NCBI GenBank assembly: GCA_027382625.1
Contig: JAJKFJ010021596.1
Coordinates: forward strand, 16,765-80,764
DNA length: 64,000 nt
Reading direction: 5' to 3'
From: Tetmemena sp. SeJ-2015
Taxonomy: Eukaryota; Ciliophora; Spirotrichea; Sporadotrichida; Oxytrichidae
Below the pieces are notes generated by a model. The model saw only the letters and a program-made list of their open reading frames with translations. It searched no databases and was not told where the DNA came from. Positions 7,738-63,157 of the stretch are shown here, piece after piece. A program made the translations under genes and the position numbers. Each line of letters starts with the position of its first letter. Position 1 is the stretch's first letter.

Positions 7738-10326
7738 TCAAGCATTCATTTTCTTCATCAAGTAAGGAGCCCCATTTGATTTAGCATCTGATTTGAAAAA
7801 CGAATCAATTTTGGAGTTAGTAATTTGCTTCTGCTCTTTAGCTGGTTTTTTAGCTGTTTATTGTGCATCCTAGCCAGTCATGCTTCCTAACTTTCTCTTC
7901 TTGCTCATCTGCATTTCTCCTTTTGGTTTCTTAGATTTATCATTAAGAGTACTTTCAATTATAATACAAACTCATTTATATTTTAAAGTTTCAGGCTATT
8001 AAGGTTTAACTTTTTGAGCATCCTTTACTTTCTATTTCTACTCCTCTTCCTCCATAAGAACTGGAAGCACCGAGTCGAAGGCTTTAAAAGATGGTTGCAC
8101 TTTATTATTGTTAAACTCAGCAACTCTCTCCTTAGACTAAGAAAATTCTTGCTGCTGGCTACTTTACTTTTTCTAAGCAGGTGTCTGGAATTGATCACTT
8201 GGCCTCGTTGACGCTGGAATTGATGAAGATTAAATTTGCATCATAGTAGTAGAAGTATCGATCTTTGATTCTGACTTTGTAAACGGATTTAACAGCTAAA
8301 GGGAATGAACAGACGTCTGAGAGTTCGATTTATTTATTTTTGCAAAACAGTTGAAAGGAGGAGGACTACTCTATCCACTCCTGATTCAATAAATAAAGCA
8401 AAATAAGAAAAGGATTCCAAACTAGAATCCTTGCTTAGAGGCAGAACTATGTTGCGAAAGTTGAGACATCCCTTACTTGATAAATTAGATGTCTTGCTGA
8501 ATTATCTTGTTGATTTTCTTAACCTCAAGACTATTTTCTCTAAAGGTGTCGTCCAACTTCCCCATAAAGTTGTTTTGACCAATTTGAGAGAACATAGATC
8601 CATCATCTCCATCTTCATCCATGAAAAAGCCTAAAGCGTCTTCATCTATTTATCTTTTTTCAGATATCAGGCCTTGTGGTTAGAAGACTTCTCTCTTTGC
8701 CATATCAGGATCTTCTTCGTCCAAGTCATCCTCTTCAAATTGGTGGTTCTTGAAAATCTGTTGTTTCTATTTCTTTTCCTCTTCTTTAGATAATTGTCCT
8801 TATTCTCCTGGATGCAGTCTTAAATCACTCTGCATAGCAAAAAATATGATGATAAACTTAATTTTTGCATGAAATCAGTGGTGAAGAACTTTCTATCATT
8901 GCATATCAATGATCTCTCAGACACGTTGTTATCAATATAGTCGAGCAAAAGTTTCTTGAAGTCGATAGCATTGAGATAGTTGTCTCTAAGCTTCATGGAA
9001 GATTTCTTAAGTCTGCCATTCACAAAGTTGTCTAACAATTTCTAGTCAATATGTTATCCCATATACTCGAGGTCAAGTTTAGTAGGATCGAAATCACTAT
9101 CAATCAATATCTCATCATCAATTTTCTCCTTCTCTTTAATTTCTTCTTTTGGACTATTCTTGTCTTTAGCTGAGGCCTTCTTATTTGCGGCTTATTTCTT
9201 GCTGCTTTTGCCTTTCTTAACTTCCTCTTTAGTTTCTACTTCGGTAGCCTCAATCTATTCTTCAGGGTGGAACTCCTCAAGCTAGGTTAGTTTTCCAGTT
9301 CTTGAGTCATAAACAGTCTAATAGAAAAACACTGCTACACTTTCTTCAAAGCTACAAATAGCCTTTGGGGACTCTCCCCTGAAATATTTTGTTACTTTCG
9401 AAAGACTTCATCACCGCATCAATCGAACCGTTGTTCTTCTAGAAATGCTTTATAGCCACTTTTAGTCCCACTTGCTGTATAGAAGGAAGATATTCACAGC
9501 CAGCCATAATGCACAATTACACAAATTGCTATCTGGTACAGCTTTGTAAGTAAGCCAGAGTCTGATCAGATTTTATGGCAGGGTCTGTAAAGCATTCGAA
9601 TTTTATTTTTAAACTTTCAAGACTAGCATTTATTTAATAGGTTTACTGTTCTTAAAATCCTTATAGTCAAAGAGTTTGCAATAGCCATTGAAATTTAATT
9701 TCATGATAAGCTTTGGGCAACCGTATGCTATCAAGTCTGAGTCCTCACTAATTGCAAAGTCTGCTATGCCTTCTTTAACCATGTAAGCTATCTGTGCGTC
9801 TGCCTCATAAGGAGCAATCACTAACTAGATAATTTTACACTATTACAAGACTTAGAAATCTTATAAACGATAGATGTCCAATTTCTTGAGAATATCGATG
9901 AAGAGATCGATCATTTTACTCCTGAGGATCAAGCTGCGCATGAAATATTTGCGCGCCTCTTCCTCATTTCCCTCTTCTGCCTTTTGCATAGCTGTTTCTT
10001 TGTTTACCCTTTTGTTGTGGCTTCGAACCATTTCCGTAGCCTCTTTAGCTTTCAAGTGTAGACCATCGAACACGCAAATAGGTTTGATTCCATACTGCTG
10101 CACAAGCTTCAGCATCTTCAATGGGTAGGCTAGAAATATGGAAAATACAATTAAACTTTTGAAATCCCAGAGTTTATTAGTCGAGACCCAACTCATAAGA
10201 GTAAGCATATGCGCCTTTGTAAAGCCAAGTCATGATGTCTACAACAGCTGTTTAGTTGCGATAGCGCGCCAAGTTGCAGTCCTTGACTGCAGGTTTCAGC
10301 ACTTGCAAAAGTCCTTGAATACCCAT
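7738..10326 (-). CDS. EXO1: Exonuclease 1-like 5'-3' exonuclease/flap nuclease (XPG/Rad2 family)
   Basis: Acts in mismatch repair and resection in the nucleus. Start CAT at 10324-10326 gives [20 protein letters not shown], the processed EXO1 N-terminus. [14 protein letters not shown] carries the first metal-binding Asp, [17 protein letters not shown] the second, then the XPG-I block [20 protein letters not shown] and [18 protein letters not shown]. An IES separates YSYELG from [13 protein letters not shown]. The part after the nuclease core ([20 protein letters not shown], 9508 downward) replaces the expected helix-hairpin-helix segment, followed by a long acidic, Gln/Lys-rich tail. The tail ends [20 protein letters not shown] and TGA at 7738-7740. 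KIDSFF resembles a PCNA-interacting motif but has Asn in the usual Gln position. Other XPG members (FEN1, GEN1) fit less well because of the MGIQGLL start and long tail. Confidence 0.9.
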
Positions 10327-10411
10327 TCCTATTTTGAACTCAAGTTGCTATTTACTTTATTAAATTCAAATTGGCGCCCATTTTTATCTCCAATCGCCTT
10401 ATTTTTTGAGG

Positions 10412-10423
10412 AGCTCAAAGATA
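10412..10423 (+). repeat. Pointer AGCTCAAAGATA, start of PARN segment 2
   Basis: Identical 12-mer at 12975-12986. The flanking bases differ on both sides, so the match is exactly 12 bp. Joining at the repeat gives DTVAQRYWKSKESAKNFLAF in one frame. Confidence 0.92.
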
Positions 10424-12986
10424 CTGGAAAAGTAAAGAGTCTGCTAAGAATTTCTTAGCTTTTCAGATGGGTATCTGTGGCTTTAAATATGATACCGCTA
10501 CTCTAACACTCACTTGCTATCTTATAATCATCTATTAAATATTTAATTGATCCCTACAATATGAATATCATGCCTTACTAGAATAGAGACAGAGACCCTA
10601 AGGGAAAAAGAGAGCCTCACAACTTCTATATACAATAGAGCGCTTTTCAATTTTTGAAGGACTATAAATATGACTTCAACAAGCTCATGTATGAGTCTGT
10701 TCCGTTCTTGAGTTATGCAGAATACAAAAATTACCTCACAGATATCAAACTCCAAGAGTAAACCTTAAAAAGTAATCCTATTTTCTCTCATTGATTGCCT
10801 TATTTTATTCATAACTAGTTGAGGAGACTAAGTTCGATTCAGCTGAGTGCATCACTTATGCAAACTCCTGGTTTCATATAATCAAAAGCTGGCTTGAAGA
10901 AACCGGAAGAAAAATTCCAGCCACGGAGTTAGCGAATTCTCCCAAGAATAGTCTCAAACTAGATATCTCATTCACAAAGTATTATCTCTTTGCTAACAAT
11001 AAAAATTCCAATTATCATTTTATATGTTTTATCTTAGATTTTTGCAAGTTTGAGGAAAAATATTCTTAAGATGTTTCCTAAAGATCAGCTCAGCATAGAG
11101 TTTATAGTTGACGATGCCAATTCAGAAATTTACCTTGAATCAATTGCTCAATTAATTTTAAATTTCTAAATTAATATGTTGAAGTTAAAGGTTGTAAACG
11201 ATCGCAGTTCTTGAAAAAATTTAAAACTAGAAGTAAAGAGCTGACAATTACAAAGCTCTGGCCAATTTATCTACAGCTAAAACTTGATTGGGAACGATTT
11301 GTAAACTTCACTCAAGTAATTTTGTAACACTCCAGCCATGTTAGAAGGCATTTTAAAACTGGAAAGCTCGAATTAACTGAATGAGTTGTTGAAAAATCCT
11401 GCTGAAGAAGGTCACTAGCTGCTAGATTCTGTTTCCAAGAATGTTTTAGAATCAATTGAAATTGACACAGAACATCTTCTAGGTGCAAGTATCTTGCCTT
11501 TATATATTGCAGCACTCTAAAAGCCAGTAGTATTTTATCAAGGGTTTTCGGATTTATTGTACTTGTACCACTAATTCTACAAGCCTTTACCTGATGATCT
11601 GCTTTTAAAAATAAGTATAACTATATTTCAAAATTTAAAAATGATCTGCTTGAATTTAGAGCAAGTATAAATACTCTTTTTCCTCACCTATACGACGCCA
11701 AAGTTTTGCTCTAAAATAATTCAGAGTTAGAAAGCATGATTAAATCAGTAGGAGGCTAAAATCTCCACTCGAGTTTTATCCGATCCACAAGCGATGATTT
11801 ACAATTCTCCTAGGTGATAAGTAACATACATTTATCATTATTTCTTCTTAATAAATGAGTATGATAAAAATAGCTAAGGGGTTTGAAAATTACTCTTTTG
11901 ATAAGGATCTAAGTCATGAGGCAGGATTTGATGCACTCTAAACTGGTGTGAGTTTCTTTAAATTCGCTTCTTTTCTAAATGGGCGCATAAATAAAAAGTA
12001 CACTTTCCCTACTAAGCTAGAGCTTACTAAGGGAAGTAAAAGGAAAGGGGTGAATAATTTTCTGCAGACCAATAAGAATCAATTCCCTATCTTCTAGCTC
12101 AAGAAAAATTTATAACTCGATCCTTGGGAAAGCTATAAGGAATCTCAGAAGGGCACTTAAGACTTGCTGAGCACAAAATCAACAAACTAGTAGCAGCTGA
12201 AAGAGCAATTATATTTTAGATATATTTGAAAGACTATATCTTTGTGGTTGATGAATTGCCGTAGGATGCAGACCTAATTAAAATTAAGTAGTTCATAGAG
12301 CAGAAATTCAGTATTCAGATATCAATTTAATAACTTTAATAAGAAGTATTTAACTTATTACAATGTATGATGACAAAGGAATCTTAGCGAGATAAAAGAT
12401 TCTCAAGGAGATAACTTCAAGTGCTGAATTGGCTTTAAATAGAAAATCGGATTCTTCTAAGGGGAATTCTTTGACTTTAATGATTAAATTATTATTAGTT
12501 GAATAGGAGGATTTATTTCACAGTTCAAGGGTTTCAAATAGAAGAGAATATGAACCATATTCTTTAAAATGAGGGAGGAGAAATAGATCTCCCTGAAATA
12601 AGTGAGAATGCAAAGCTTTATGGCTTCCAGCAACGGATTATAGAGGCTAAATTTGAGGCCGAAGAATATAACTAAGAGATGTTTACAGCTATTAAAAAAG
12701 CTTATAATCTAAAATTTTGATATTTCTTAATTAAATCTTTTTTCTCGTATGATTTAAAAATAAATGGAAGGGTTAATAAAATTATTTGAGCCTTTGAAAT
12801 TTAAAATTAACTTAATAGAAAAAAAATTTTAATGAATATTACACGCTACAACTTCCGCAAAGAGCTGCCCCGAATCCTTCAGAACTTGAAAAGCTCAGAT
12901 TTTGTAGCTATAGATTTTGAATTTTCGGGATTACTAACTGAACATATTCACTCCAATTAGGCCACTGACACAGTAGCTCAAAGATA
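10412..12986 (+). CDS. PARN: Scrambled PARN-like poly(A)-specific ribonuclease (CAF1/DEDD)
   Basis: A 3' deadenylase. The N-terminal MDS is the last in the locus: ATG 12832, MNITRYNFRKELPRILQN, then SSDFVAIDFEFSGL with the first two acidic residues. It ends in the 12-bp pointer AGCTCAAAGATA (12975-12986), repeated at 10412-10423, where the protein resumes as RYWKSKESAKNFLAFQMGIC and GFKYD. Next come FNKLMYESVPFLSYAEYK (10670s), a helical region (10826-11000), KPVVFYQGFSDLLYLYHQFY and KPLPDD (about 11520-11600), then LLEFRASINTLFPHLYDAK after an ATGATCTGCTT pointer pair (11594-11604/11641-11651). SHEAGFDALQTGVSFFKFA (11910s) supplies the His and last Asp. DYIFVVDELPQDADLIKIKQ (12231) looks RRM-like. 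A GFQQRIIEAKF segment at about 12625 probably also belongs out of order. Full MDS order and the stop were not resolved. Confidence 0.85.
12975..12986 (+). repeat. Pointer AGCTCAAAGATA, end of PARN segment 1
   Basis: Partner of 10412-10423. This copy lies 2.56 kb downstream although it ends the N-terminal MDS, so the two MDSs are permuted. Confidence 0.92.
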
Positions 12987-21600: not shown

Positions 21601-24600
21601 TTTGTTATTCTTATGAATGCATATTTGAGAGTTATGTGGAACTAGACTCTTTTAATTATATTATAAAAGATAATTGAAAATAATTCTAATGATTTTTTAA
21701 ATGCTTTTGTATACAGAAAGTTCAAGGGCCTTTAGGATACAGAATTCGGGGACTACTATTTGTAGTAGAGAGGGAGACCTGCTCACTACAATCTCATGAA
21801 CAAATAAAATTTAGCCATCGATTACCAACAGTAGTTATCAAGATAGATCTCACTCAATAAGTAGTAGAGTCATTAATCTAATTGGCTTTAAATAAATTCA
21901 TTAAAGTTTAATTATCAAAGATTAAAATATTATTTAAAAAAAAAAATAACATTATATTTTTCGCTTGATGGACTGATAAACTTATTTCCTAAGTTGATTA
22001 TACCAAACAACTATTGATTTAGAAATATAGCTACAAGTAATTAAATTAAATGGTAGACTTCTCTTTAAGAAAAATAAGATCTTAGATTCAAGCTAAATTA
22101 GTTAAATCTTTAGAACGACTTAAAATAAATTGTTTGAATCTATTTACATAAGACAATTTGTTTTAAAATAAAAACTTGTGATTAACTCCCTAATAAGAAT
22201 AAGTGTACAATATTCCTAAAAGCTTCTTTTGTATCTATAAAATAAATTAAGTAAATATTATTAATTTAGAATGGATTATTAAATAATAAATTAATTTAAA
22301 ATATTTTTCAATTTATAATGAGTTTAGTAGGATTTTGTAATGGAAAAAGCAAATAATCATGGTTTAGCAGGAACTATGAACTTATAGAGTACAGCTTCTC
22401 ACACTATCATTATTCACTCGCACAAAAGCTTAATTTGTTAATTAAGAAAAATATTTATAATCTTAAGATGGAAAATAATATAAAAATCAGTTTGAAGTTT
22501 TCAATTGCGGCTAAATAATCTTAAAAATTGAGACTAATTACGAAATAAATAACTTAGATTATTCAAGCCAGCCCTTTAAAAGTAACTTATAATTAATTTG
22601 ATTGAAGCTGAAAGAAAACAAGAAAATCTACTATGAAATCGCTGACTATGACTTGAGACTTATGCTTTTATAAATATTTCCAGATGGAAACACTCTAATG
22701 CACTTGCTCGCAAATGATAATTAGATAATCGACGACATTAGAATTAAGCTAGAAACTGCAATCCTTTATCCTCAAATTGAACAAATCAATGAAAAATACC
22801 TCGATTAAGAAATATATTCAATACATATTGAATGAATGCATTTAATTAGCAAGAGCTTGGATGTAAATTTATGTTCCTCAAAAACTAAGACGGATAAACT
22901 CCTCTTCATTTATGCATTGAAGCTGAAAATGCTCTGGGAATAGACATTTTATTTTATATACAATGTTTTGTAAATAAACATAATTTATTAAGGAAGATTA
23001 TTTTTAATTCTTATACTAATTTTGGAAAACATAGGTCTTAAATTCTTAATTATAATTTGTAGATAGTGTTTAAAATTAGACTCGATTTTAAATCTATTGA
23101 GAATTGATTTTTTAATATTATTTTTAGCTTCTTATTTAAAAAATTCTTTCTATTTATTTTAAACAATATAAAGAATAAATGCTTTCAATATATATTATTA
23201 TTATTATATATGGTTTACATCTTTCTAAAAATGCTTCAGAAAGATTCTTTCGCTAGGCACACTTTCCCATATTTAAAGTTTTTATATTAATTTATCCCAT
23301 TAAGTGATGTACTTCCCGATCTTTTACAGATAGAACCATCAAGCTTAGATAATTAAATCGCTTTGTTTATTTATTTAGAGTCTTATTTGGAATCTAGGAT
23401 AGTTCAGACAAACTCTCAGAAGCAGATCAAAGAAGGAGCAATAGACTTTGAAGAAGGATTTCCTATTCAAGCTATTCAAATAAGTGCTATGGCTGACAAT
23501 TCAGACATGTCTAAAATATTTTATGTCTCCTAATATAGTTATAAAATACTAGAGAACGATAATGCCTTGAGAAAAGATATCACGGTTTAGATTTGTGACA
23601 TTCCAAACATTCATCTCTATTCATTTTATAATGTTAAAGAGTAATTTAGTTTCAGACGCTACTAGTTACAGACTATTTCAAATGCTTTCACAAGTAAATA
23701 ATCTTGAGCTCTTCAATTTTAAAACTAAATAGATTTATCTTAATTTGCGTCTTGTTCAAGGTCTGGTGAATCACAAATGGAGGCAAGCTCGAAAATATTC
23801 TTTAATTTGGCTTTTTATACCGTTCATCTTGTTCCATGGAACTTTCATAGCATATTCTAATGTATTTAGTGGATAGCTATCTTATGATGAAAACGAACAC
23901 CCAAACTTAAAGAAAGGATAGATTGCTTTGTCAGTTATCAAATAATAAAATGCATCTATACTTATTTGATATATCCTCTACTTCTTCTGTGTTTACTTTT
24001 TGCAAAATGAGATAAGGCAAGTTATAAACAACGGAGTGATAGAGTATATGCTCTCGATATGGAACTATATCGATATTCTTCCTGTGCTTTTGATAATCAT
24101 AGTGGTTACTAGTCATTTAAACATGCACTACAACGATAGTTACCAACATTACAATTTCCTCTATACAATACATGCTGTGGCTTCCCTGTCCATGTGGCTT
24201 AAATTCCTCTACTTCCTTCGTCTTTTCGACCCAACTGGATACAAAATTAATAAACTATAATTTAGTTATCTATATCATAGAATACATAGTCAGAAGCATA
24301 GTAGGAGTTTTATGGGACATGAAGGTATTTTTGCTGATTCTTGGGATAGTTTACTGCGCCTTCGGAGAAGCCTTCCTCAGACTAGCTGAGCCTATGGAGG
24401 ATGAGGAATTACGCTATGTGACTAACTTCGCAAATGCTTTTGTGTACATTTATAGAATGAGTTTGGTTGACAACAATACAGATGCCTTTGAGATGAATCT
24501 GCAATCAACCACTCTTTGGATTCTTTTTGTAATCACAGGAATAATAATTAAATAAGAGATATTTTAAATAGTGTTGCCTATAATTATGCTTAATCTACTC

Positions 24601-25087
24601 ATTGCAATTATTTCTATGTCTTTTGAACGCATTAACGAGAAAGCAGAGTTAGCTGCTTTACAAGAGAAAGCACGCATTATCTTTGAAAATCATTATCTCA
24701 TTCCCTCTTACATATAGAGAAGTTTAGACGACAAGAACAAATTAGTGACATTTATTATTAAATATTCTTAATATTAAATTCTTAGGGATAATTACTGAAG
24801 TTTCATCTTCACCAAGCAATATAAATTCTTTAGACGTTACTTCCTAAGTTGCCTCTCAAATATCATCTCTTAAAAAGCAAGTTTAAATAATTTATCATGT
24901 TTTTAAATGATTATAAGTTGATGAAGTGTAAGAAGAATTGAAGACTCAATTTAAAGATAAACTCACTCAAGTTTCAAAACAGCAAAGTGATCTTACAGTC
25001 AAGCTTGACACTTACTAAGAGCAAACAAAGAGATAACTTGAGGAAATTAACCACACTCTAAAGTAATTGCTACCAAAGAAATCTTGA
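15648..25087 (+). CDS. Very large WD40-like / ankyrin / TRP-type ion channel
   Basis: From ATG 15648 (MYSARSSKPPSNSLNRKFPI) many short, beta-rich coding segments follow, such as CVGFAAAVIKISSKEPRSD, TYIADENGNIEIYKNGKLL, ILDITNGYLIRKVFLDREV and IIVFSLGKIGHSMVLFRDDK. They are typical of degenerate WD40 blades. Ankyrin-like repeats follow: DGNTLMHLLANDNQ (22688) and DGQTPLHLCIEAENALGID (22890). The pore-forming part starts near 23770 with several TM helices (YSLIWLFIPFILFHGTFIAY; IWNYIDILPVLLIIIVVTSH; SMWLKFLYFLRLFDPTGY; MKVFLLILGIVYCAFGEAFL). It ends with MLNLLIAIISMSFERINEKA, the TRP/ion-transport S6-to-tail signature, and a coiled-coil tail to TGA 25085-25087. WD40-ankyrin-channel fusions are common in ciliates. 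Dozens of AT-rich IESs explain the length. Treating it as one gene is an inference; the N-terminal third is least certain. Confidence 0.7.
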
Positions 25088-25249
25088 AGTTTTGATTAGT
25101 TGAATTATTATTTAAAATTTTCTTTATCGATAGTTAAAAATATGATATTCACAAGCTGTTGAATTTCCATCTTAATTATGATTAAGCCTAATACTGTCAT
25201 AAATATCATCATTATTTCTTGAAATTTAAATATACTGAGTATAAAATTA

Positions 25250-27385
25250 ATGGACACTAACAATTTCCGCCAAGAATCCAAAGAGCCCTTGCTTCTAAAG
25301 CAGGATAATAAAAATGAAGACAGCACTTAGAATTAGCTCAAGAATCAAGACAATTAAAATCCTAGTCTCAATACAGATGTTCAATAGTAAAATCTCCAAA
25401 TTTATGAAAAAGGCAAAATAGATAACTACAATAGTGCGCTTACTTATATTTATTAGCTTGACCTCAGATAAATTATGTCCCAAATTGTGAGTCTCTCTAC
25501 TTATCCAATAATAAGTATGCTGTTCCATCCTGGCTATCATTTAATTCATTTTTCTTTAGCTTATCAGATATTCAACGTAATGAAAGTTGGAAAACTTGAA
25601 AATTCTATAGAGAATCTTGCTATTTATGGTCTTGCAACAGTATCCCTATCACTTCTACTAATGTCAATACAGATCTCTTTTAATAATGCCCTAACTACTC
25701 TCATATCATAAGCAAATGGATAAAAGGAATACATCCTCTGTAACGTTTACTTAAAGAGACAACTTAAAATTTATAGAAAATAATAAATATATGCAGTTGA
25801 ACTTATCCTAAATGTCATGGTTTTCGCGAGCATATCCTTAATCTTTATATTTTCGAAGTAGTTTTACTTGCTAATTTAAATTATAGCAAAAATTAAATTG
25901 GCAGCCAGAATCAGTGGCGCATAAAACTTGGATCTACACTTTGCTTGTCTTACCTGGGTAATTTATGTTTGGAGTCTACCATACTTAACTTAAGAATTTT
26001 TATAAAATAAAGCACCTCCTCACTTAAAATAGGTTTACTCAAAGTATTTAGCAGGTCAGAAAGAAGTTAAATTCTCGATGTGGACTAACATATTTTCTTT
26101 CCTTCTTCACATCTATAAATATCTGACTTATTTAATTTGAATCCCTATTACCTTGTTCATCGTTGACTACTTACAGATGGGGCTTTACGGTGTTGCGATC
26201 GCCACTTCAATTCATTTTACCAATCGATTTTTAATCTGCTTCACAATTATAAAGCGTTCCAGATTCTTAATATTTCATATAAATATGGAATGGTTAATAA
26301 TATCTTTTTTTTTAATTCAATCAGTATTCAGTTTCTTGGAAAGATGAGAGATGCTATCAGAACCTACTACCCTAATTGTAGATGTCTCTCGAATCCTGCG
26401 GGATGATTTTGTGGTCTTGGTGGGCATTCGACATGTTCACCTTTATTTCCTCTTTCATGGCTACCAGTGTACTAGCTGCACAGACAGTTTGCAGAAACAG
26501 CATTAATCCTTGCATAATTTTACTTTTGAAACGTAGTTTTGATGTTCTATATGATTCCAGTGGGTCTAACTCAAGCCACAGCAATCTCAGTGGGAAACAA
26601 AATCGGTTAAAATGACGTTCATGCAGCTCAAAAGTTTGCCTTCGTGTGCACGATATTTGCCATCTGCTGGGCAGCAATGTCAGTAACTATCATGCTTATT
26701 TTCGATGATATGATAATCTCCCTCTTTACTCATATCAATAGATTAAACTTAGAAATGTATTATGCTTTATACTGATAGCTAGGAAGTGATATCTCTTGTC
26801 CACTAGGCTTTTGTACTGATTGGTCTCTTCATAATTTTTGACTGCACTTAGTGTATCGGCTCTGGTATTATAGCTGGCATGGGAAGACAAGGCAAGGGTT
26901 CTATATTCACCATAAACATGGAAATAAATATATCCATTAAACATTTATAATAAAAATGATTTAATCGGCTTTTGGATTATAGGTGTTCCAACTTGCTTGT
27001 GCAGGTATTTTATTTCAAGTCTGGCATTGAGGCGTTGTGGTTCGGTCCTCTTTTAGCTCACTTCCTTAACACTATCTCGTACTAAGTCATATATAAATAA
27101 ATTATAAATTTGCTTACTACACTATTGTAATAAGATCAGATTGGAATGAGATAGTCGTAGAAAGTTAAAAAAGGAGATCTAGAGACAAAAAGTGAAGACT
27201 CAGATCATCACAAATCTAATTAAATACATCAAATACAGTTATTCATTAATTTAAATACCATCGATTACAATAAAGAACTTCAGAAATGGATTATTGTAGA
27301 AATATCATTTAATCATCAAAGTAAAAAGCAAAATTCTTTGCTTCAATCGCTATCGTTTTTTAATTCGATTTCATCATTGCTTTGA
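25250..27385 (+). CDS. MATE-family multidrug/toxin extrusion transporter
   Basis: A cation-coupled efflux pump of the plasma or vacuolar membrane. ATG 25250 (MDTNNFRQESKEPLLLKQDN) leads through a Gln/Asn-rich tail to IVSLSTYPIISMLFHPGYHL, then FNNALTTLISQANGQKEYIL, matching the MATE SQA.G motif. TM pairs follow: VDYLQMGLYGVAIATSIHF (26160), LWSWWAFDMFTFISSFMATS with VLAAQTV (26408), and MIPVGLTQATAISVGNKIGQ with NDVHAAQ (26557), the second MATE repeat. SGIIAGMGRQGKGSIF (26860) matches the late G.GRQ motif, and ALWFGPLLAHFLNTISYQV (27032) the last helices. An in-frame TGA at 26138-26140 and frame changes near 26345, 26515 and 26790 mark IESs. The open frame runs to TGA 27383-27385, overlapping the tail of the convergent gene; the true stop may be earlier. 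Confidence 0.88.
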
Positions 27386-38056: not shown

Positions 38057-40224
38057 TCAAATGGCCACATATACAGTCTTGCGAGAGAAGGTGTCAATTG
38101 CTTTATCAAGCTTGTTAATCTTCTCCTCCATTTCTTTGATACGTTTCTGTAAAGCCATGCTTTGATTGGCTACTGGCATTCTCTCCAGAGCGTTTATAAG
38201 TTCTTTCTTAGTAGACTGTAAATCCTCAAGAGTGCGAAGTCTCTCATCCTCTGGCATGAGTCTCGTGCCAGCTGGCATCTTTGCTTCTTCTTCCTGCCTT
38301 CTCCTGTACTCTGCCTCACTCTCCTTCTGCTTTTGGTATTTCTCAATGTATTTGGGCACCTTTCCAAAGTCCTTGTGATGGGGATCTTGTTACTGATTTA
38401 CTCCTTGTTAAGATTGCTTGCGATTAACTGCAGCTCCCTTGTTCGGATTCAAGGCTTCCGCTTTATTGTCCTTCACATAATTACGAGGCTGCTTAGAGCT
38501 CTCTTATTAATTGAGGGAGGTTAAATTTGCAGCAGTAAGTGTCTACGGTCTCTTCTGTTCCTCTTCTTAGGCTTCATAGTTTCTCATTAAAAAATTAATT
38601 CTATTCAAATTGAAATACTCACATAGCATATCAAATAGTAAATAAGCAATTCGATTTATTCTATGGCTGGATCTTGCTCTCTCAGTAACTTGCTTTGCCT
38701 TGGGAGGTTTGGCAGCTATCTTCTGACCCCCTACTCCTAGATCATTAGCTTCAGGCTTATTATCAGTCAATCTTTAAGTTCTGTTGTTATTAGCTTTAGG
38801 AGGGTAGACCTGTTGGTCGACTTCATTACAGCTCCCTTCTGCTCCTATAATTAAGAAACTAATATAATTTATCTCCTCTTGGGGGTTTGACAGGTGCTGC
38901 AAATAAAGGAACCTTGGTGTCTTCGATAGACACTAACTTAGTATCCTCATAGATTACTACTCTTGAAATTTGAAACTCCTCAGACATAGCAGCTTGTAGC
39001 AAAGCAGTCTTGTTCGCCATTCTTATTCAATAATTAAATGACTACAATAGGATGAATTTTTTATCTTTGCTTTGCATCAGGTTGATTTTTATTCTGAGGT
39101 TGCGCTCTAGCATTAGGAATTTGATAATCGTACTAGTCGTGCTGCATAGATCCATTAATCTTATTCTAGCTGCTATGCCTCTGTGGTTTGCTGCCGCTCA
39201 TATTGTTTGGGAGTTAGTTCAATACCGCCTTAATAGAAATAGTGAATAAATATTTATTCAACCCTTCGAGTAAGGACCATCCATTTGAACTGGAGATTAA
39301 ACATTGGAACTAAAGGGATTAAGCTTGAGTATAGTTAGTCTTACAAGTTTTGGTTTTCCTTCTAGCCGTTGTTGCTGCGAGTGCTTTCCTATTCAAATAC
39401 ATTAAGCACAATTTAAAGAGTAATCCTCTTATTAAAAGGGCCTTTACTTACTGGAACACCATTTCTGACCTTGGCTTCAACACTTTGGAATCTCTTCATT
39501 TTCCACTCTTGCTCTAAATATTGTTTTATTTCGAATTTCGTTTACTGGGGTGGGCATTTGCCTTTTCCTCTTCTTATTTTTGCTTTGACTCTTGCTCCTT
39601 TAGTTTCATCTTATCTTTATTCTCCTTGTGGAAGTCTTTCGTATAACTATACACCACCAAAGTTAATAACAAACAACAATCAATAAAATGAAAATATGCA
39701 ACATAAATAAAGTAAATAGTATATATTAAAGTATCCTTGTCTTACGATTTCTTAATATCTGGGAAGAGTTGAGAACTCATCTGGCTATTTTCATGTTGCT
39801 GCCTTGTTTTATGAATCATTTTTAAAATATTTAAATCTATTTTCCCTTTAAATTAGTGATAACAAAATGAAGAAATGAATAAAATCCAAGGGAGTAATTT
39901 ATTAAATGCTTAAAAAATAACTATACAAGTCTAAGAAATAATTACAGAGAGCATCGACCGTTTTGAGTCGAAACTACATCCATTATTATATTAAGTCGTT
40001 AGTATTTGTGAGTTAGACTATTGCTCAGAATTTGTATTTCCTTTTATAATGAGTAGAGCCATTCCAATATTTTATAGTGTTGGTCAGTATTAAATGATGT
40101 TGACTGACTTGGAGTCATCATTCACTCCCAAGCCCTCTCTCATATTTCTTCTCTTTTTGGATTACAGATGTCTCTCAACGTCTCTACTTTGGTTTTTCTA
40201 AGAGAAGCTGGGGTCTGAAGTCAT
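38057..40224 (-). CDS. ENKUR: Enkurin-domain ciliary protein
   Basis: The C-terminal enkurin domain (38057-38400) reads KDFGKVPKYIEKYQKQKESE, then TRLMPEDERLRTLEDLQSTK, and ends RKTVYVAI with TGA 38057-38059. Enkurin is a ciliary/axonemal protein that binds calmodulin and TRPC channels in animals. Upstream coding pieces are MANKTALLQAAMSEEFQISR (39020 downward; a GGAG pointer joins KPPRG to AEGSCNEVDQQ), MSGSKPQRHSSQNKINGSM (39180), KFEIKQYLEQEWKMKRFQSV (39530) and TKDFHKENKDKMKLKEQESK (39640). The last resembles the N-terminal motif of enkurin-like proteins. MTSDPSFSQKNQSRDVERHL from 40224 is a plausible first MDS. Two readings remain: one gene starting at 40224, or a shorter one starting at 39020. 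The domain call is firm; the 5' extent is not. Confidence 0.75.
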
Positions 40225-54987: not shown

Positions 54988-56659
54988 ATGAACGGGCAAG
55001 GTAATTCAAACTTCCGAACAGCGAACGACTCTCATATGAAGATGGTCCGTATCAGGATGCTAAAGCATTATGAACACTTCACTGAAAACTAGTCATAGAC
55101 TACCTTTGCACTCTAAATGTTAACTTTGACACACTCATTACAGCTTGGATACAGAGGCTAGAAGCAAGATGAAGTAAGTAAAATCATCAAAAACACTATT
55201 TGATTATGATAATTCATTTTCAGTAGATGAAGGGAATCATAGTTCGATATGACACATGCATGCGTATTGAAATCTATTCAGGCAAACTCTTTGTTCCTAA
55301 AACAAATCACAAAGGGATTCAATCTCACCATAAGGAAGATATAAAATCACAATCTCTCAAAAAGCCAACCTCTCTCCCAATACCGAACTCGATGAATTAG
55401 GGAGTTCATAAGAGTCAAAAGATAAAAGCTGAATAGAAAAGGTCCCTCCTTAATCTAAGAGAACGATGATGAACTTATCAACTATCTCTCCAATTTCTAT
55501 CGAGAGTAATATAAAAGAGGAGGGCTCTTTTGACAAGCAAGATAAGGCAACTCTCGAAACATCTTCTCTTCATAACCCTGAAACGTAGCTCCAATAGATT
55601 AAAGTCTCATAAAAGTATTTAAATTTATATTAGAAAACTACAACGACCTAGAGATGAGATCATGAAGCTTCAGTTCAAAAACAATTAATAATGGAAAAAA
55701 ATTTATCGAAAACCTCAACTCATGCTTCATCTCTCACGACATGGTTTGATTTTGCAGTACCAAATTAGTCTCGAGTAAGAGGAAGCTTCTCTCACGCTTT
55801 CAGATAGAGGTAGACTCATATGAGTTTCGAACTGAGAATGCTGATTTTAACTAAGTACTTAATATTCACTTACAGGAGTCGACAGACCCTGAACCATACA
55901 TCTTCCACATTGAGGATATAACATCTGATATTCATACCTCTCTATCCATTTCGAAAACTCGAATCAACATTTCAGAAAACTAGGCTCTATGCTCAATTAC
56001 TATTTTTAGATAAATATACTAACCCTTAACAGGTACCTGCAGGATAATGATATTCCTTACAACCCACACTTTATCGGCCTCCTGGTTGAGTATTAACCTC
56101 TAATGCTTAGAGATAACATGCAACTTGAATAGCACTCTGCATCAATATAACAATATATTAAAGAGCTAGGCTTTAATGAGATTGAGTCAAAGTGCATTCA
56201 GCACGACAAGTGACAATTTTGGATCAGTGCAAAGACAACATGGACAAGGGTATTTCGATCCTCAAGAAGATCATGGGCTACGATGAGCAAACTCTATTAT
56301 ACTTTATTTAGGTTGTTTAACTAAGACCTACTATGTAGCTGCCTGCTGCAGAGACATTCTTTCTCTTCATCAACAACGAGCGGAAAGAATAAAGCTCCAC
56401 TCGAGCGATGTCTGAATCAAATTCTTCAAATCAAATTAAAAATTTATCAAAATAAATAATTGCGAATGTGGTGTATCGGGGAGACTCATTGTTTGTGATG
56501 AACGAAATAATGACAAATTATGAGGAGGAAGAAATTTCGAAGGTATCCCAACGACCGAACTTCATAGTTCTTCTTCAAATAGTTTTGAAAGCTTAGTGCT
56601 AAGAATATGTGGAAATACAAATATATATTCCAAGAGAGGCATTTCCTCATATGATTTGA
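54988..56659 (+). CDS. Unknown protein nested inside the MFS insert
   Basis: ATG 54988 opens MNGQGNSNFRTANDSHMKMV, then RIRMLKHYEHFTENQSQTTF. After an AT-rich break comes MKGIIVRYDTCMRIEIYSGK. Later pieces are KLLSRFQIEVDSYEFRTENA, TDPEPYIFHIEDITSDIHTS, NPHFIGLLVEYQPLMLRDNM, IKELGFNEIESKCIQHDKQ, MDKGISILKKIMGYDEQTLL and LPAAETFFLFINNERKEQSS. The end is VSQRPNFIVLLQIVLKAQC, followed by a tail to TGA 56657-56659. The LPAAETFFLFIN stretch recalls the ..FFL.VN block of ATG8-like ubiquitin folds, but the rest does not fit, so no function is assigned. Several AT-rich breaks suggest ordinary MDS/IES structure, so this looks like a host gene nested in the insert rather than transposon coding. Confidence 0.45.
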
Positions 56660-57512
56660 AAAGCGAAGGAATAATTTGGAAAGAATTGAGTTAACTAGGT
56701 CGCGAAAAAGTTTGAAAAATTTTGTGAATTGAATACAACACAACTAAGTAGCAAAGCAACTATTAGCAGGCTATCTGCTTAGTGCCGATCGTACAGTACT
56801 ATTCCTGAGTGTCATCTTTCTACTGCATCTTGTAAAACGTGGCTCCAACAAGCATGATAGTGGTACTGGAGTAGCCGAGGGAAGAAAGTCCTCATCTTGA
56901 GTTGCTCAACGATTATTATTATATAACGCTAGGTCCTTAGATTGTGATAGTCTAAATTCATTCTAGAATCATTTGAGTGCATTATTTCCATTAAAAACTG
57001 TTATGGATAGAAGAACACTCATGACAATAGTAATAGTTGATGTGAGTATGAAGCATAATTTCAGCCTACGCACACACCCATCTTCACACGATAATTTAAG
57101 GAAACCGAATGATTATGATATAAATATTGGGGCACTGACCTCCTCACTCGACTGCATCTATTCAGCTGTGCGCGACTTCTCAATTTCCTGGTTATGTCTA
57201 AATCATTTAGAAAACTCTTGGATAAACCTAAAATTCTCTCCTTACTCAGAAGTAAGTAGAAATTTGTATCAAGGCAATCTTCACATCAAAAAGACATTTC
57301 GAGGTAGATATCAATATCAAATCTATATGAGAAATTAATAGATGCTTTAATTACTAACACATCAAGATTTAGAGGTAGAAAGCGGTATTATCTTATGAGC
57401 CAGACTTCCTCTATAAGCTTTTTTCTAGTAAGAAAGTTAATGTACAGTATAAAAATTAATTCGGTATAGGGAGTGATCAGTACTTCATAGAGAGGGGGAG
57501 ATTTTTTTTACT

Positions 57513-58008
57513 ATGAGAACTTTAGATGGCAGATTCCAGCAATGCTACTCTGTGTAGTATTTGATGCTTGACTTCAAGGAATGCTGCGGAGTACAACACG
57601 AGCATTTCGGACCAAGAGCGCACAAAGTGATAATATCTTGGCAACATTTCAACTGCGAAGTCTATTAGCGGGCTTAAATTTATAGATAGGCAGAAGCTCT
57701 AGATCCAGACATTCCTACACCAATCAGTAGAATACATCAGGCAGGTAAGCTACTAGTTCGAAGAGCTAAGATCTTTAAGCATGGAAAGCTACTCGATTTG
57801 TCAAAGTCTCTTTTTGATATAGAGAAACTACTCGAAGGTGTCTACCAAAAGAGAACACAAAGGACCTCATCAGACTCCAGCAATAGCTTGAGAAAAGATG
57901 AAATTAAATCGCTCTAGCACTGCAAACAGTCTAGGCGAAAAAGATTTTACGAAAAATTTATGAGATATTCCATTCCCATCTTCGTTTGTCATTAGAAGGG
58001 TGCCAAAT
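57513..58008 (+). CDS. Unknown Cys/His-containing ORF at the right edge of the insert
   Basis: ATG 57513 opens MRTLDGRFQQCYSVQYLMLD, then FKECCGVQHEHFGPRAHKVI, HFNCEVYQRAQIYRQAEALD, TPISRIHQAGKLLVRRAKIF and LLDLSKSLFDIEKLLEGVYQ, followed by a Ser/Lys/Arg-rich tail. Closely spaced Cys and His residues could form a zinc site. It has no TGA and its frame runs through AT-rich DNA directly into the MFS TM2 frame at about 58060, probably by chance. It may be part of a transposon accessory ORF or a foreign MDS. Confidence 0.4.
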
Positions 58009-58072
58009 AATAATTAGTTCTCAAAGAAAATGTATTTCATTATTATTTACCAAAAAAATTTACTAAGTGCTC

Positions 58073-59502
58073 AGAGCCTTATGTAATTGGACTCTTCGGT
58101 ACTCTAGAGTTTGCTGGACAGTTATTTGCCTGCTTTATTTTCCCACCTCTTGCAGATCTTCTTGGTAGGAGGGTTTTCACATTCATAGGTCTTGGAATGC
58201 AGGCAATCGTATTTGTAGGGCTGATTGCCTTCAGAAACCTGGAACTATTTTTCTTGCTGATCTTCATTCTTGGTAACGCAGCCATCATTAGATATCTGAT
58301 TGTGTATGCACATCTGATGGAGTTCGTAGCAGCGCGGCAGAATTTAATAACAGGAGTTTTCATGTTCATGGATGGGCTAGTTTACATATTCTCGCCGCTT
58401 ATACTCATTTATCTCACCAATAAGACATCTTATATAATTTCAATGTATGTTGACTTCATATTTCAATTCAAATCTTACCTAGTGTACCTAGCGTTAGTCT
58501 CATCAGTGATGGCGATAGTATTCCTTGCATTTGGGCTGCACATGCCAGAGTCTTTGAAATTCTCATTGGCAAAACAGGACATCATGAAGTTCCAAAATGA
58601 CATGGACTATATTTGTACTATGAATAAGGCAACAGAGTAACAAGTGGATAATATCAACTCTCTCGTTGAAAAGTACTGTAATCAAGTGAGACAAGAAGCT
58701 CTCTTGATGCAGAAGAGTTAAATGGTCCCAACTAGCAGGTGGCAAGGACTCAAATAGATGGTACACAGCTAGGACTCTCAAATGAGGAATCTGATGCTCA
58801 TGACTATTTGTTGGAGTAGTACCACTTTCACTTATTTCTTAGTCATCTTCTATGTCAAGTATTTGCCAGGAGATATCTACACTAACTAACTTAAAATATC
58901 GTGAATAATTCATTCTTGTCAAGTCTAATATTAAGCTGAAGAATATATGAAACGACTATTCTTATTTGTAAACTAGATTGTGTCAGGATTTTCAAGTTTT
59001 GCATATTTAGCAGCTCCCTTCATGGCAAGAAAATATGACAACAGACAGATAATGCTGATAGGAAACACCATATCTTTGATCTTCTTAGTGATAATGATAG
59101 TATTCCAGCTAGTGGAGGTGAATGCTGTTCTTTACTCCTTCATTTTCCTGCTGTTCAAGTGCGGAGTGACTCTCGTTTTCCTTTCACTTTTCATTATCCA
59201 CATAGACCTCTTCCACATTTAGTTATTTGCTTCTAGTTATGGAATATGCAACATAGTTTCTAGAATATTCACACTCGGTGCTCCTATTGTAGCTGAGTTT
59301 GAAGAGAGATTAGTCCCTTTGCTCATTATGATAACATAAATAAAATCAATTAGATGTTAAATTTTTAGAGATTGAATTATGATGATTGAAGAATAAATAG
59401 ATTGAATATGATATAAATATGATGGTGATGAACGTTCTAGCTTTAATTGCAAACTACTTCTTAAAGATGAGATCTAAGGGATAGAACTACTCCAATAGCT
59501 GA
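58073..59502 (+). CDS. MFS transporter (SLC22/SV2-like), 3' part
   Basis: Resumes at the AGAG pointer with EPYVIGLFGTLEFAGQLFAC (TM2) and FPPLADLLGRRVFTFIGLGM, the MFS G-x-L-x-D-x-x-G-R-R loop 2-3 signature. Further TMs are LELFFLLIFILGNAAIIRYL, VFMFMDGLVYIFSPLILIYL and LVYLALVSSVMAIVFLAFGL, followed by the MPESLKF motif after TM6. The large central loop (about 58560-58780) contains basic and polar residues. The second half includes SGFSSFAYLAAPFMARKYDN with RQIMLIGNTISLIFLVIM, then SYGICNIVSRIFTLGAPIVA. TM12 probably spans 59290-59340, with a last MDS near 59415 ending KMRSKGQNYSNS, TGA 59500-59502. The substrate is unknown; organic ions are typical for the family. Confidence 0.82.
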
Positions 59503-59850
59503 TTAAATCCTATCTACCAACCTAAAAGGGTTATTTAAAATTTGTAAAACTGTAAATAATTTCAGAGAGTCAACATTCTCATAACAACAAGAAGTAAATA
59601 TATTTTAGCTCTTTAACGATTAGCATATGATTCAGCTTTATATTTAGAGGTAAGATTTGTTGGCAAGTACTGAAATATCATTAAGATTTGAGAGGTGTTC
59701 ATCTATTTACTAGGGAGAATCCTCCTCAAATCTTACGAACAATTACCATCCTTATAATTTATTGCTATATTCGTCTATTTTAACAGAAAAATTTACTTTC
59801 TCTCATAATTCTCCAATATTATAACTAAATAATCGAGCCTATCTCTAATA
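59503..59850. other. AT-rich intergenic spacer
   Basis: No coding evidence; 5' flank of the ALDH gene. Confidence 0.5.
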
Positions 59851-62192
59851 ATGGTCGAATCAAACCCTACTTCATTTAAATCCAGCTTCTATTTATAAGT
59901 ATACTGCATTAACATTCTCTCAGTATCCCTTCTTGAAGGAACTTGGACTCTCAGAAAACAACTTGGGATGCTACCACAGCGGGAAATGGATCGGTGGTGG
60001 AGAAGAAGTTGTCGCACTCAATCCCCACAACAATCAGCCAATTGCTAAGATCAGATTAGCAAGCGCCCAAGATTATCAAGACTTAATAAAGTAATTAAAA
60101 TACGTTCCCCTTTATTTATTGAGACTGCATCAAGGCAATGGAATCTGAAAAAGTAAGGTGGGCAAAGACCCCAGCCCCTATCAGAGGAGAAATCGTCAGA
60201 CAGATTGGAGAGGCCTTCAGAGCAAAGAAGGAGGCCCTAGGTTTACTTGTGTCTCTCGAGATGGGAAAAATTAAGAGCGAAGGGCTTGGAGAAGTTTAGG
60301 AGTACATCGATATCTGCGATATGGCAACTGGCATGTCCAGAACTCTTGAAGGTAAAGTACTTCCCAGTGAGAGACCAGGACACTTCATGATGGAGCAATG
60401 GAACCCTCTTGGACTGATTGGCTGCATCACAGCCTTCAACTTCCCCATAGCAGTTGCAGGCTGGAACGCAGCAATATTTGTAATTTCTAATCCTTTTTGC
60501 AATAGCCTTTATTTGCGGTGACTTGATGATTTGGAAGCCAGCACTCACCACTTGCCTCTGCGCCATTGCTACTCAGAACATAGTGAATGAAGTTTTGGTC
60601 AAATTCTAATTTACATCTATCATCCATCCAGACTCTCTGCGCTGGAGATGGCCCCAACGTTGGCTCCCTTCTAGTTAAGGATCCTAGACTGCAACTTATT
60701 TCGTTCACTGGCTCAACTGCCGTTGGAAGACAAGTCTCCCAAGAGGTTGCTAAGAGATTCGGAAGAACAATTCTCGAACTTGGAGGAAACAATCTAGGAA
60801 TTTAAAAATTAGATGTTAGTAAGAACTTCATTTTATTGCTTCATTTAATTGCTAGTAAATGCAGCAGTGATCATGCCAGATGCTGATCTTGATCTTGCAT
60901 TGAAAGCTTAGCAAAGATAACTAAAAGTTAATTTTAAATTCTCATTTTGAACCCACAGTTGTGAGCATCTAGCATGACGCTGAAATATAAGGAATCAGAG
61001 TTATTCTATAATCTAAAAACAATTTCATTCAGAGTAAATGCTTCATATTTTAAAGCAAAGGATATCCAAAACTACTTCAACTAGAAAGTGTTAAGTCTCT
61101 GACTGTGGTATTGTAAACTGCAACATCTTATTTTAAATTGATCGGAACCTCAGAAGCAGAAATCGGAGGTGCCTTCGGCGGAGAGAAGGAGACTGGTGGT
61201 GGAAGGGATATATATGCACTGATTCTTGGAAGCAGTACATGCGTCGCTCAACTTGCACTGTCAACTACACTAACTATCTTGCTCTCGCTCAGGGTGTGCA
61301 GTTCAAGCTCTGATCTTAATACTTAACATTTAAATTAAACAAACCATTTATTCTACTAAAAATAATTTTCTCTTATTTTATTTGAGGTGTATTTTTAAGC
61401 TATGGTCTCAGCTTATTAGACCATTAAAAGAGGAGATCCTCTTCACTAAGATACTCTTCTAGGACCCCTTCATACTAAAGATGCTGTCAGACAATATAAG
61501 GAAGGAATCGAAGAGATCAAGAGTAATTAATTTAAACTAAAATCACATTTTATAAATAAGAAAGATCTAAAAAAATCTATCAGCATATAAGCTTATCTAT
61601 TAACTTTTAAAAATAGAATGCTTATATAAAATCTGATGCTATTTTTTATTAAATTCGGATTCAACTCCATCCAGACTTTAACTTAAAATACGATAGAATT
61701 TCTGTCTACTCAGCTAAATTAATTCAATCAAGAATTTATTTAAATCATAGTGTTGAGAGATAATTTGATATATGTATTTTTGAAAGCTTGCGTGTTTGCA
61801 GCAGTAGGCACTGCTGGTCAACGCTGCACCACTCTGCGCAGAATTATAATCCATGAGTCTATCCATGACAAGTTCGTTGAAGCTATGGTTTGATTATTTT
61901 CTTAAATATATTTGAATAAGAGATCAAGAAGCAAGGAGGAAAGGTGCTAGTAGGAGGCAACGTAGTTGGTGGAGAAGGTAACTATGTTGAACCCACAGGT
62001 AAAGATTTAATTATAGTTGACTCTGAGTGTGTGAAGCACGAGTTATTCGCACCTGTTGTGTATATCATTAAGTTCAAGACTCTTGAAGAAGCCATTCAGT
62101 ATAACAATGGAGTCCCTCAAGGACTTTCTAGCACTCTATTCACCAAGGATATCCAATCATAATTAACTGGACTGGCCCCACTGGCTCTGACT
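59851..62192 (+). CDS. ALDH7A1: Scrambled ALDH7A1 (antiquitin, alpha-aminoadipic semialdehyde dehydrogenase)
   Basis: An NAD-dependent dehydrogenase of lysine catabolism, cytosolic or mitochondrial. ATG 59851 (MVESNPTSF), then after a break [20 protein letters not shown]. Ordinary IESs with pointers GACT (60080/60123), GCAATA (60471/60499) and AAT (60791/60858) join [80 protein letters not shown] (catalytic Glu). The gene then jumps to 61780 ([20 protein letters not shown], catalytic Cys), back to 61397 ([20 protein letters not shown]), forward to 61918 ([20 protein letters not shown] ... [20 protein letters not shown]), and back to 61097 ([20 protein letters not shown] ... [20 protein letters not shown]). 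The stop is TGA 61311-61313. Each jump is made by a matching pointer. A 2-nt frame mismatch near 62158-62166 is unexplained. Confidence 0.94.
60900..60909 (+). repeat. Pointer TTGAAAGCTT (ALDH S1 end)
   Basis: Partner at 61780-61789, start of S2. The join reads [19 protein letters not shown] in frame. Confidence 0.92.
61097..61104 (+). repeat. Pointer CTCTGACT (ALDH S5 start)
   Basis: Partner at 62185-62192, end of S4. The join reads [20 protein letters not shown] in frame. Confidence 0.9.
61397..61406 (+). repeat. Pointer AAGCTATGGT (ALDH S3 start)
   Basis: Partner at 61880-61889, end of S2. The join reads [18 protein letters not shown] in frame. Confidence 0.92.
61511..61522 (+). repeat. 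Pointer AAGAGATCAAGA (ALDH S3 end)
   Basis: Partner at 61918-61929, start of S4. The join reads [17 protein letters not shown] in frame. Confidence 0.92.
61780..61789 (+). repeat. Pointer TTGAAAGCTT (ALDH S2 start)
   Basis: Second copy of the pointer at 60900-60909; 870 bp away, with S5 and S3 lying between. Confidence 0.92.
61880..61889 (+). repeat. Pointer AAGCTATGGT (ALDH S2 end)
   Basis: Second copy of the pointer at 61397-61406; S2 lies downstream of S3, so their order is reversed relative to the protein. Confidence 0.92.
61918..61929 (+). repeat. Pointer AAGAGATCAAGA (ALDH S4 start)
   Basis: Second copy of the pointer at 61511-61522. Confidence 0.92.
62185..62192 (+). repeat. Pointer CTCTGACT (ALDH S4 end)
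   Basis: Second copy of the pointer at 61097-61104, which lies 1.08 kb upstream. Confidence 0.9.
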
Positions 62193-63137
62193 AAGTACTA
62201 TCCTAGTTTTTTTATCTCAGGAGCAGAATAAGATATAGACCATCTATTTAAAATGTTAGGGAAGGGAGTCTGGCTCTGATTTCAAATATACAAAAAATTC
62301 AGCATTAGGTTTAGCATTAAATCATTTTTATAAATATCCCATCTCATATGGTTAGAAAAACTTATTTTTAATTTTTATTATTAGAATCAATAGCAATAGA
62401 TAAACAACTTTAATATTACAAATCTAAACTTAAGAGTTCAGAAGTAAGTCAGCATTATTTTTATCAAACGAAGTAAAGCTTATGAAATTGATCATAGGAA
62501 GAAGTCTTTTTTTAATTATGAATTAAAATATAATTTTTTTAAACAATTAAAAATTTTTAAAAAACGAAATCTTTAAATAAATGATTTGCAAAATCTTAAA
62601 ATAAAATTCAGTTTAGCATTTTAATAATTTAAATTCAAAAACTTCAGTTTTTAAATTTTAAAAGTTTTCCAAAGGTTTAAATAAAAAAAAAATTAAAAAT
62701 AGATAGAGAGAAATTGAATTAATTTACAATTTTCTGTAAAAAATAATTATATTAATAAATTAGAAACATTTTCCAAATTATATTGTCATAAATTAACAAA
62801 ATTTAATCATTAGATACTTAATCTAGTCAACAACCTCATCTTCATTATCATCCTAGTCAAATATTAAAATTGTAATTAAGGAAGAGAGAAATATCTTTTT
62901 ACTCTCTTTTTAAATTAAAAATAAAATATTTTCTTATTTAGTTTATTAAAAAAAAATAATTTTTAAAAAATTTGGATTGTTTTTAAAATTCAAATTTAAT
63001 TGGCATTTTATTAAAAAGTTTTAAAGATAATTTATTGTGCAAAAAATATCTGCAATATATATCACATCTTAATTGAAGGATCATCATCGATAAATAAAAG
63101 TAACTTTTTAGTTTGAATTTTATGCTCTTGATTTAAA
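62193..63137. other. Very AT-rich germline spacer
   Basis: Long A/T runs with no coding frame supported on either strand. Composition changes abruptly at the C4A4 block. Confidence 0.6.
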
Positions 63138-63157
63138 CCCCAAAACCCCAAAACCCC
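63138..63157 (+). repeat. C4A4C4A4C4 telomere-like block, TBE-type transposon terminus
   Basis: Two and a half units of the spirotrich telomeric repeat, preceded by AAA, inside the window rather than at a sequence end. AT-rich DNA lies to the left and much more GC-rich DNA to the right. TBE transposons of Oxytricha-type ciliates end in such C4A4 repeats, so the element should extend rightward from here. Confidence 0.8.

Follow-up and report, generated by a model that had tools for sequence, protein, structure and literature searches.

In the stretch of 64,000 nucleotides analysed here (the window), an antiquitin (ALDH7A1) gene lies in pieces between positions 59851 and 62281 when the DNA is translated with the ciliate code (table 6, where TAA and TAG encode Gln and TGA is a stop). 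The pieces belong to one aldehyde dehydrogenase and are joined via short direct repeats, the pointers. In total, the locus holds 18 segments (MDSs) and 17 pointers, and every MDS lies on the + strand (Table 1). The MDS order along the DNA is 1, 2, 3, 4, 6, 7, 11, 13, 15, 16, 18, 9, 5, 8, 10, 12, 14, 17, an order called scrambled by comparison with homologous proteins, which stand in for the somatic gene of the species. The joined frame contains a single stop, the final TGA at 61311-61313, and its product has 515 residues followed by that stop. The coding sequence has a GC content of 0.47 vs 0.08-0.29 across the 17 AT-rich spacers.

Table 1. Segments of the antiquitin locus, listed in the order of the joined gene.
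Feature	Position	Strand	Content	Out-pointer and destination
MDS 1	59851-59871	+	Coding part; ATG start, MVESNPT	TACT, conventional
MDS 2	59902-60083	+		AGACT, conventional
MDS 3	60122-60476	+		GCAATA, conventional
MDS 4	60499-60606	+		AAATTC, to 61651, scrambled
MDS 5	61651-61677	+	Tiny (GFNS)	TCCATCCAGACT, to 60623
MDS 6	60623-60793	+	Contains LELGGNN	AAT, conventional
MDS 7	60858-60909	+		TTGAAAGCTT, to 61780
MDS 8	61780-61889	+	Contains GQRCTT	AAGCTATGGT, to 61397
MDS 9	61397-61522	+		AAGAGATCAAGA, to 61918
MDS 10	61918-61998	+		TTGAACCCACAG, to 60947
MDS 11	60947-60983	+	Tiny (VVSIQHDA)	CTGA, to 62023
MDS 12	62023-62156	+		AAGGATATCCAA, to 61058
MDS 13	61058-61082	+	Tiny (KDIQNYFN); cures a frameshift	AACT, to 62165
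MDS 14	62165-62192	+		CTCTGACT, to 61097
MDS 15	61097-61127	+		ATC, conventional
MDS 16	61141-61208	+	GAA = Glu464	GGAAGGGA, to 62260
MDS 17	62260-62281	+	Tiny (GRESGSD)	CTGATT, to 61219
MDS 18	61219-61313	+	C terminus to TGA stop	
Candidate micro-MDS or decayed paralogue remnant	62216-62228	+	CTCAGGAGCAGAA; 12/13 identical to 61149-61161	

The map was obtained by dynamic programming (DP), in which a guide protein is read along both strands of the DNA and a jump requires at least three identical preceding bases at both places, its cost dropping as the repeat grows longer. Two antiquitin-type aldehyde dehydrogenases compared as proteins only, F5AMQ0 of Oxytricha trifallax (P0001) and F5AMQ1 of Stylonychia lemnae (P0002), were used separately as guides. 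Both gave the same 17 segments without indels, except that the first one starts at 59885 or 59906. The DP skipped the TACT jump, and MDS 1, the first 21 coding bases, was placed by hand, its MVESN being identical to P0001. No inverted segment was used by the DP although both strands were allowed. A map guided by homologues in this way is blind to swaps of pieces that leave the protein unchanged. A search of the locus for repeats returned mainly AT-rich imperfect repeats, and the sole pointer that it recovered was TTGAACCCACAG, inside a 14/15 match.

The DP score was 2143 with free jumps, 1668 when only forward jumps were permitted and 591 without jumps; it did not exceed 133 in 20 decoy stretches of 3 kb taken elsewhere in the window and fell to 45 with the reversed guide. 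Ordinary introns, or forward-only excision in general, were rejected on the difference between 1668 and 2143. The same comparison bears on a reassembly of the gene at the RNA level, by trans-splicing or ordinary introns, in place of a rearrangement of the DNA: backward joins are required, which is impossible for cis-splicing, and splicing is not known for direct repeats of up to 12 bp at its junctions. Two spacers do start with GTAA (61523 and 61999), which would fit such processing, and DNA and RNA processing are indistinguishable by sequence alone; on balance, we regard RNA-level reassembly as extremely improbable.

The four tiny MDSs were assayed individually by dinucleotide shuffling of the surrounding spacer DNA (guide P0001, + strand, 59700-62500). 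For each of them, none of 100 shuffles reached the real score at the default costs, with margins of 5-19 units, and none of 250 did so at lower jump costs, with margins of 5-17 over the best shuffle.

The protein encoded by the 18 MDSs is identical to Oxytricha antiquitin at 456 of 515 residues and to Stylonychia antiquitin at 441 of 512, with 3 gap letters in each case. It carries the aldehyde dehydrogenase motifs LELGGN (at 271) and GQRCTT (at 303), which we take to contain the catalytic Glu and the catalytic Cys, respectively. At three alignment columns it has a gap where most of the best 120 of 7,995 homologues have a residue. Database and structure matches were obtained with a provisional join of 515 residues that still lacked MDS 1 and MDS 11. 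Its nearest solved structures are antiquitin/alpha-aminoadipic semialdehyde dehydrogenases (E down to 2.4e-190), and its best database relatives among the matches listed come from Oxytricha trifallax (87% identity) and Stylonychia lemnae (85%), over 99% of the join; among these matches, no protein is more than 87% identical. Compared with nine homologues, this provisional hand-made join, an open protein, displayed faults at the N terminus and, in addition, three surplus residues before CIKAM and a poor fit after NYVEPT. The top of 43 matching families was the L-piperidine-6-carboxylate dehydrogenase equivalog NF050084, whose 681.7 bits lie below the curated cut-off of 730, in a library built for bacterial and archaeal annotation. 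The identities of 87% and 85% point to a host that is probably a hypotrich near Oxytricha and Stylonychia.

Other features of the window were recorded in parallel. The domain scan covered 19 of the 45 open frames of at least 220 residues, plus the shorter frame 58905-59375. A major facilitator gene at 57477-59375 is spread over two frames, 57477-58904 (profile positions 33-223) and 58905-59375 (profile positions 244-342, below the curated cut-off), and the junction near 58.9 kb may be an IES or an intron. An open frame of 839 residues at 8275-10794 contains a partial CAF1 ribonuclease domain (profile positions 61-144 of 320), the remainder of which may be located elsewhere. Frames read in code 6 also matched Enkurin (38057-39076, - strand), a RING finger (5648-6670) and, both partially, an ion channel (24094-24798) and MatE (25223-26140). 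At 63138-63157 stands an exact 20-nt telomere-type repeat, CCCCAAAACCCCAAAACCCC. The ends of Oxytricha TBE transposons are described, in the available part of PMC4724952, as CA4C4A4C4 with ANT target duplications; ANT is absent directly before the 63138-63157 repeat, which could be either the end of an element or a chimeric macronuclear telomere. Rfam gave no match at the gathering threshold over the whole window.

The first-pass annotation had described the gene as five segments in the order S1-S5-S3-S2-S4, resolved by four long-range pointers. These pointers are indeed present, TTGAAAGCTT at 60900/61780, AAGCTATGGT at 61397/61880, AAGAGATCAAGA at 61511/61918 and CTCTGACT at 61097/62185, and the coarse order is correct. 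The continuous frame that they were said to restore was not found: the bare join measures 1747 nt, which is no multiple of three, and contains 8, 16 and 4 stops in the three frames. Missing from that description are the five conventional junctions and the four tiny MDSs of 22-37 bp, and MDS 17 lies beyond its end at 62192. A simpler gene made of these five segments and four scrambled pointers, with the remainder intact or conventionally interrupted, scores nearly as well as the whole locus when forward-only excisions are added to the join (2141 vs 2143, at default jump costs and with the four long joins made cost-free). After these collinear excisions, its product retains 438 identities over 511 residues with the Oxytricha protein (10 gap letters) and 423 over 510 with the Stylonychia protein (6 gap letters), that is, in the case of Oxytricha, 18 identities fewer and 7 gap letters more than for the 18-MDS map, and the lost stretches are those that the tiny MDSs supply. 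This simpler model was rejected on the stops of its join and on the lost identity, and we consider it very unlikely. The concept of a scrambled, pointer-joined gene holds, whereas the map with five segments and four pointers was too coarse; the map that fits has 18 MDSs, and 12 of its 17 pointers are scrambled. The programmed unscrambling of DNA that had been presented as read directly, base by base, is deduced from the germline sequence and homologous proteins.

Direct repeats of 3-12 bp were found at 17 of 17 junctions. Because the DP requires a run of at least three bases and the hand placement of TACT looked for a repeat, only the longer pointers count as evidence. Shared runs between random pairs of places, within 12 bases on either side, reach at least 12 bp with a frequency of 1.5e-5, at least 8 bp with 6e-4, at least 4 bp with 0.089 and at least 3 bp with 0.30. 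Because short runs are this common by chance, the evidence resides in the long pointers, and the short ones lean on the reading frame and homology; TACT, AAT, ATC, AACT and CTGA are weak when taken singly. The 12 scrambled pointers have a mean length of 8.7 vs 4.2 for the five conventional ones (Mann-Whitney p=0.006). The pointer TTGAAAGCTT also has a third copy outside the antiquitin locus, at 56585-56594. The list of scrambled pointers reduces to two repeat (odd-even) words with nothing remaining.

These features are in agreement with what is known of related organisms. Scrambled genes have long been described in Oxytricha and its relatives and, according to Feng et al. 2022 (PMC9797194), 13.6% of the genes of Tetmemena and 15.6% of those of Oxytricha are scrambled, so that the mere presence of a scrambled gene is to be expected in a genome of this kind. 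With the genes that this paper presents for Oxytricha trifallax and Tetmemena sp., the antiquitin locus shares the MDS/IES architecture and the short pointers, as well as the odd-even pattern and the longer scrambled pointers, the latter being also published for Euplotes woodruffi. Its pointer list is reducible by repeat words, as in the odd-even and 'Russian doll' loci that Braun et al. 2018 (PMC5940158) describe for O. trifallax; it differs from these loci in being devoid of an inverted segment. In the same source, combinations of repeat words and return words account for 96% of the scrambled Oxytricha chromosomes. An odd-even list is the usual hypotrich pattern without being obligatory. The antiquitin gene map and a 13-bp micro-MDS were not met in the available part of the main text of PMC9797194, and, among the papers listed, our searches of the open-licence literature showed no report of scrambled Oxytricha aldehyde dehydrogenase or antiquitin MDSs and no pertinent report on the smallest or tiny MDSs in Oxytricha. 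If a germline genome has been published for the species, bulk data may already contain a map of the locus.

The conservation of the product was analysed on the best 120 of 7,995 homologues, in columns with at least 50 letters. Among the 173 columns conserved at 95% or more, the only departure found is Glu464: in this column, all 115 homologue letters are Gly, whereas the 18-MDS protein has Glu (GAA). The alteration of a residue that is invariant in 115 of 115 homologues, together with the dependence of the map on one genomic sequence, could speak for a pseudogene that is dead and broken into fragments, or for an artefact of assembly, merely resembling scrambling. Against such an origin, the 18 pieces meet at exact repeats in one open frame with zero internal stops, the part mapped by DP is free of indels, no second departure accompanies Glu464 in these columns, and matched long pointers in odd-even order are hardly expected from random breakage. 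We accordingly give a pseudogene or artefact very little credence. The DP map, the relatives and the jump scores make a scrambled germline ciliate ALDH7A1, resolved by pointers, the best reading, in line with the earlier annotation; with high confidence, the locus is the micronuclear, germline form of the antiquitin/ALDH7A1 gene in a hypotrich-like ciliate, and its 18 segments on one strand, when joined at the repeats, give a full-length protein of 515 residues.

The exceptional Glu464 has a counterpart in the spacer 62193-62259. There, CTCAGGAGCAGAA at 62216 pairs with CTCAGAAGCAGAA at 61149, in a collinear place, and the single mismatch would give Gly instead of Glu464; once this patch is joined in, no departure is left among the 173 columns. 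In 300 shuffles of the spacer, a match of 12/13 with MDS 16 was never reached, the best value being 11, obtained three times. Matches of 12/13 to any coding place are not rare, with 3, 1, 2, 3 and 0 of them in five control stretches of 900 bp, and another one within the locus (61377-61389 vs joined position 553) is non-collinear and probably due to chance. The 62216 patch is therefore notable only by its collinear place and its coincidence with the single odd residue. It is an evenly balanced question whether 62216-62228 is a micro-MDS of 13 bp woven into MDS 16, contributing one unique base that turns Glu464 into the family-invariant Gly and raising the number of MDSs to 20. MDS 16 would then possibly be split near 61154, the pointers of the micro-MDS would be CTCAG and AGCAGAA, and programmed rearrangement would correct a germline point mutation. 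At about even odds, the patch is instead what is left of a copy that had been better preserved, with Glu present in the soma.

With the locus read as a scrambled germline gene, its segments would be joined at the pointers during macronuclear development, with template RNAs as a guide, and the AT-rich spacers would be discarded, by extension from the available part of PMC9797194. That source also gives local duplication as a proposed origin of scrambled genes. In the present case, the 3' part of the gene might have been duplicated locally and then have undergone reciprocal decay, after which the upstream and downstream halves would each keep alternating pieces. We tentatively hold this scenario as the likeliest origin. 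The sign of duplication is the single collinear 12/13 patch at 62216. Similarity between spacers and the exchanged MDSs was absent in nine of ten comparisons, the one remaining pair, that of spacer 62193-62259, giving p=0.036 uncorrected for ten tests, and the flanks past the scrambled pointers were no more alike than random pairs (84/288 vs a mean of 76, p=0.18).

The antiquitin locus thus provides a compact and closely mapped case of odd-even scrambling. A coarse reading of germline sequence overlooks the smallest pieces, and this gene is cut into more pieces than had at first been assumed; when a homologous protein guides the search, the somatic map is predictable from the germline sequence. 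If the micro-MDS is real, the duplication-and-decay model would become directly testable, and a mutation in one germline half would be harmless as long as the correct base continues to come from the other.
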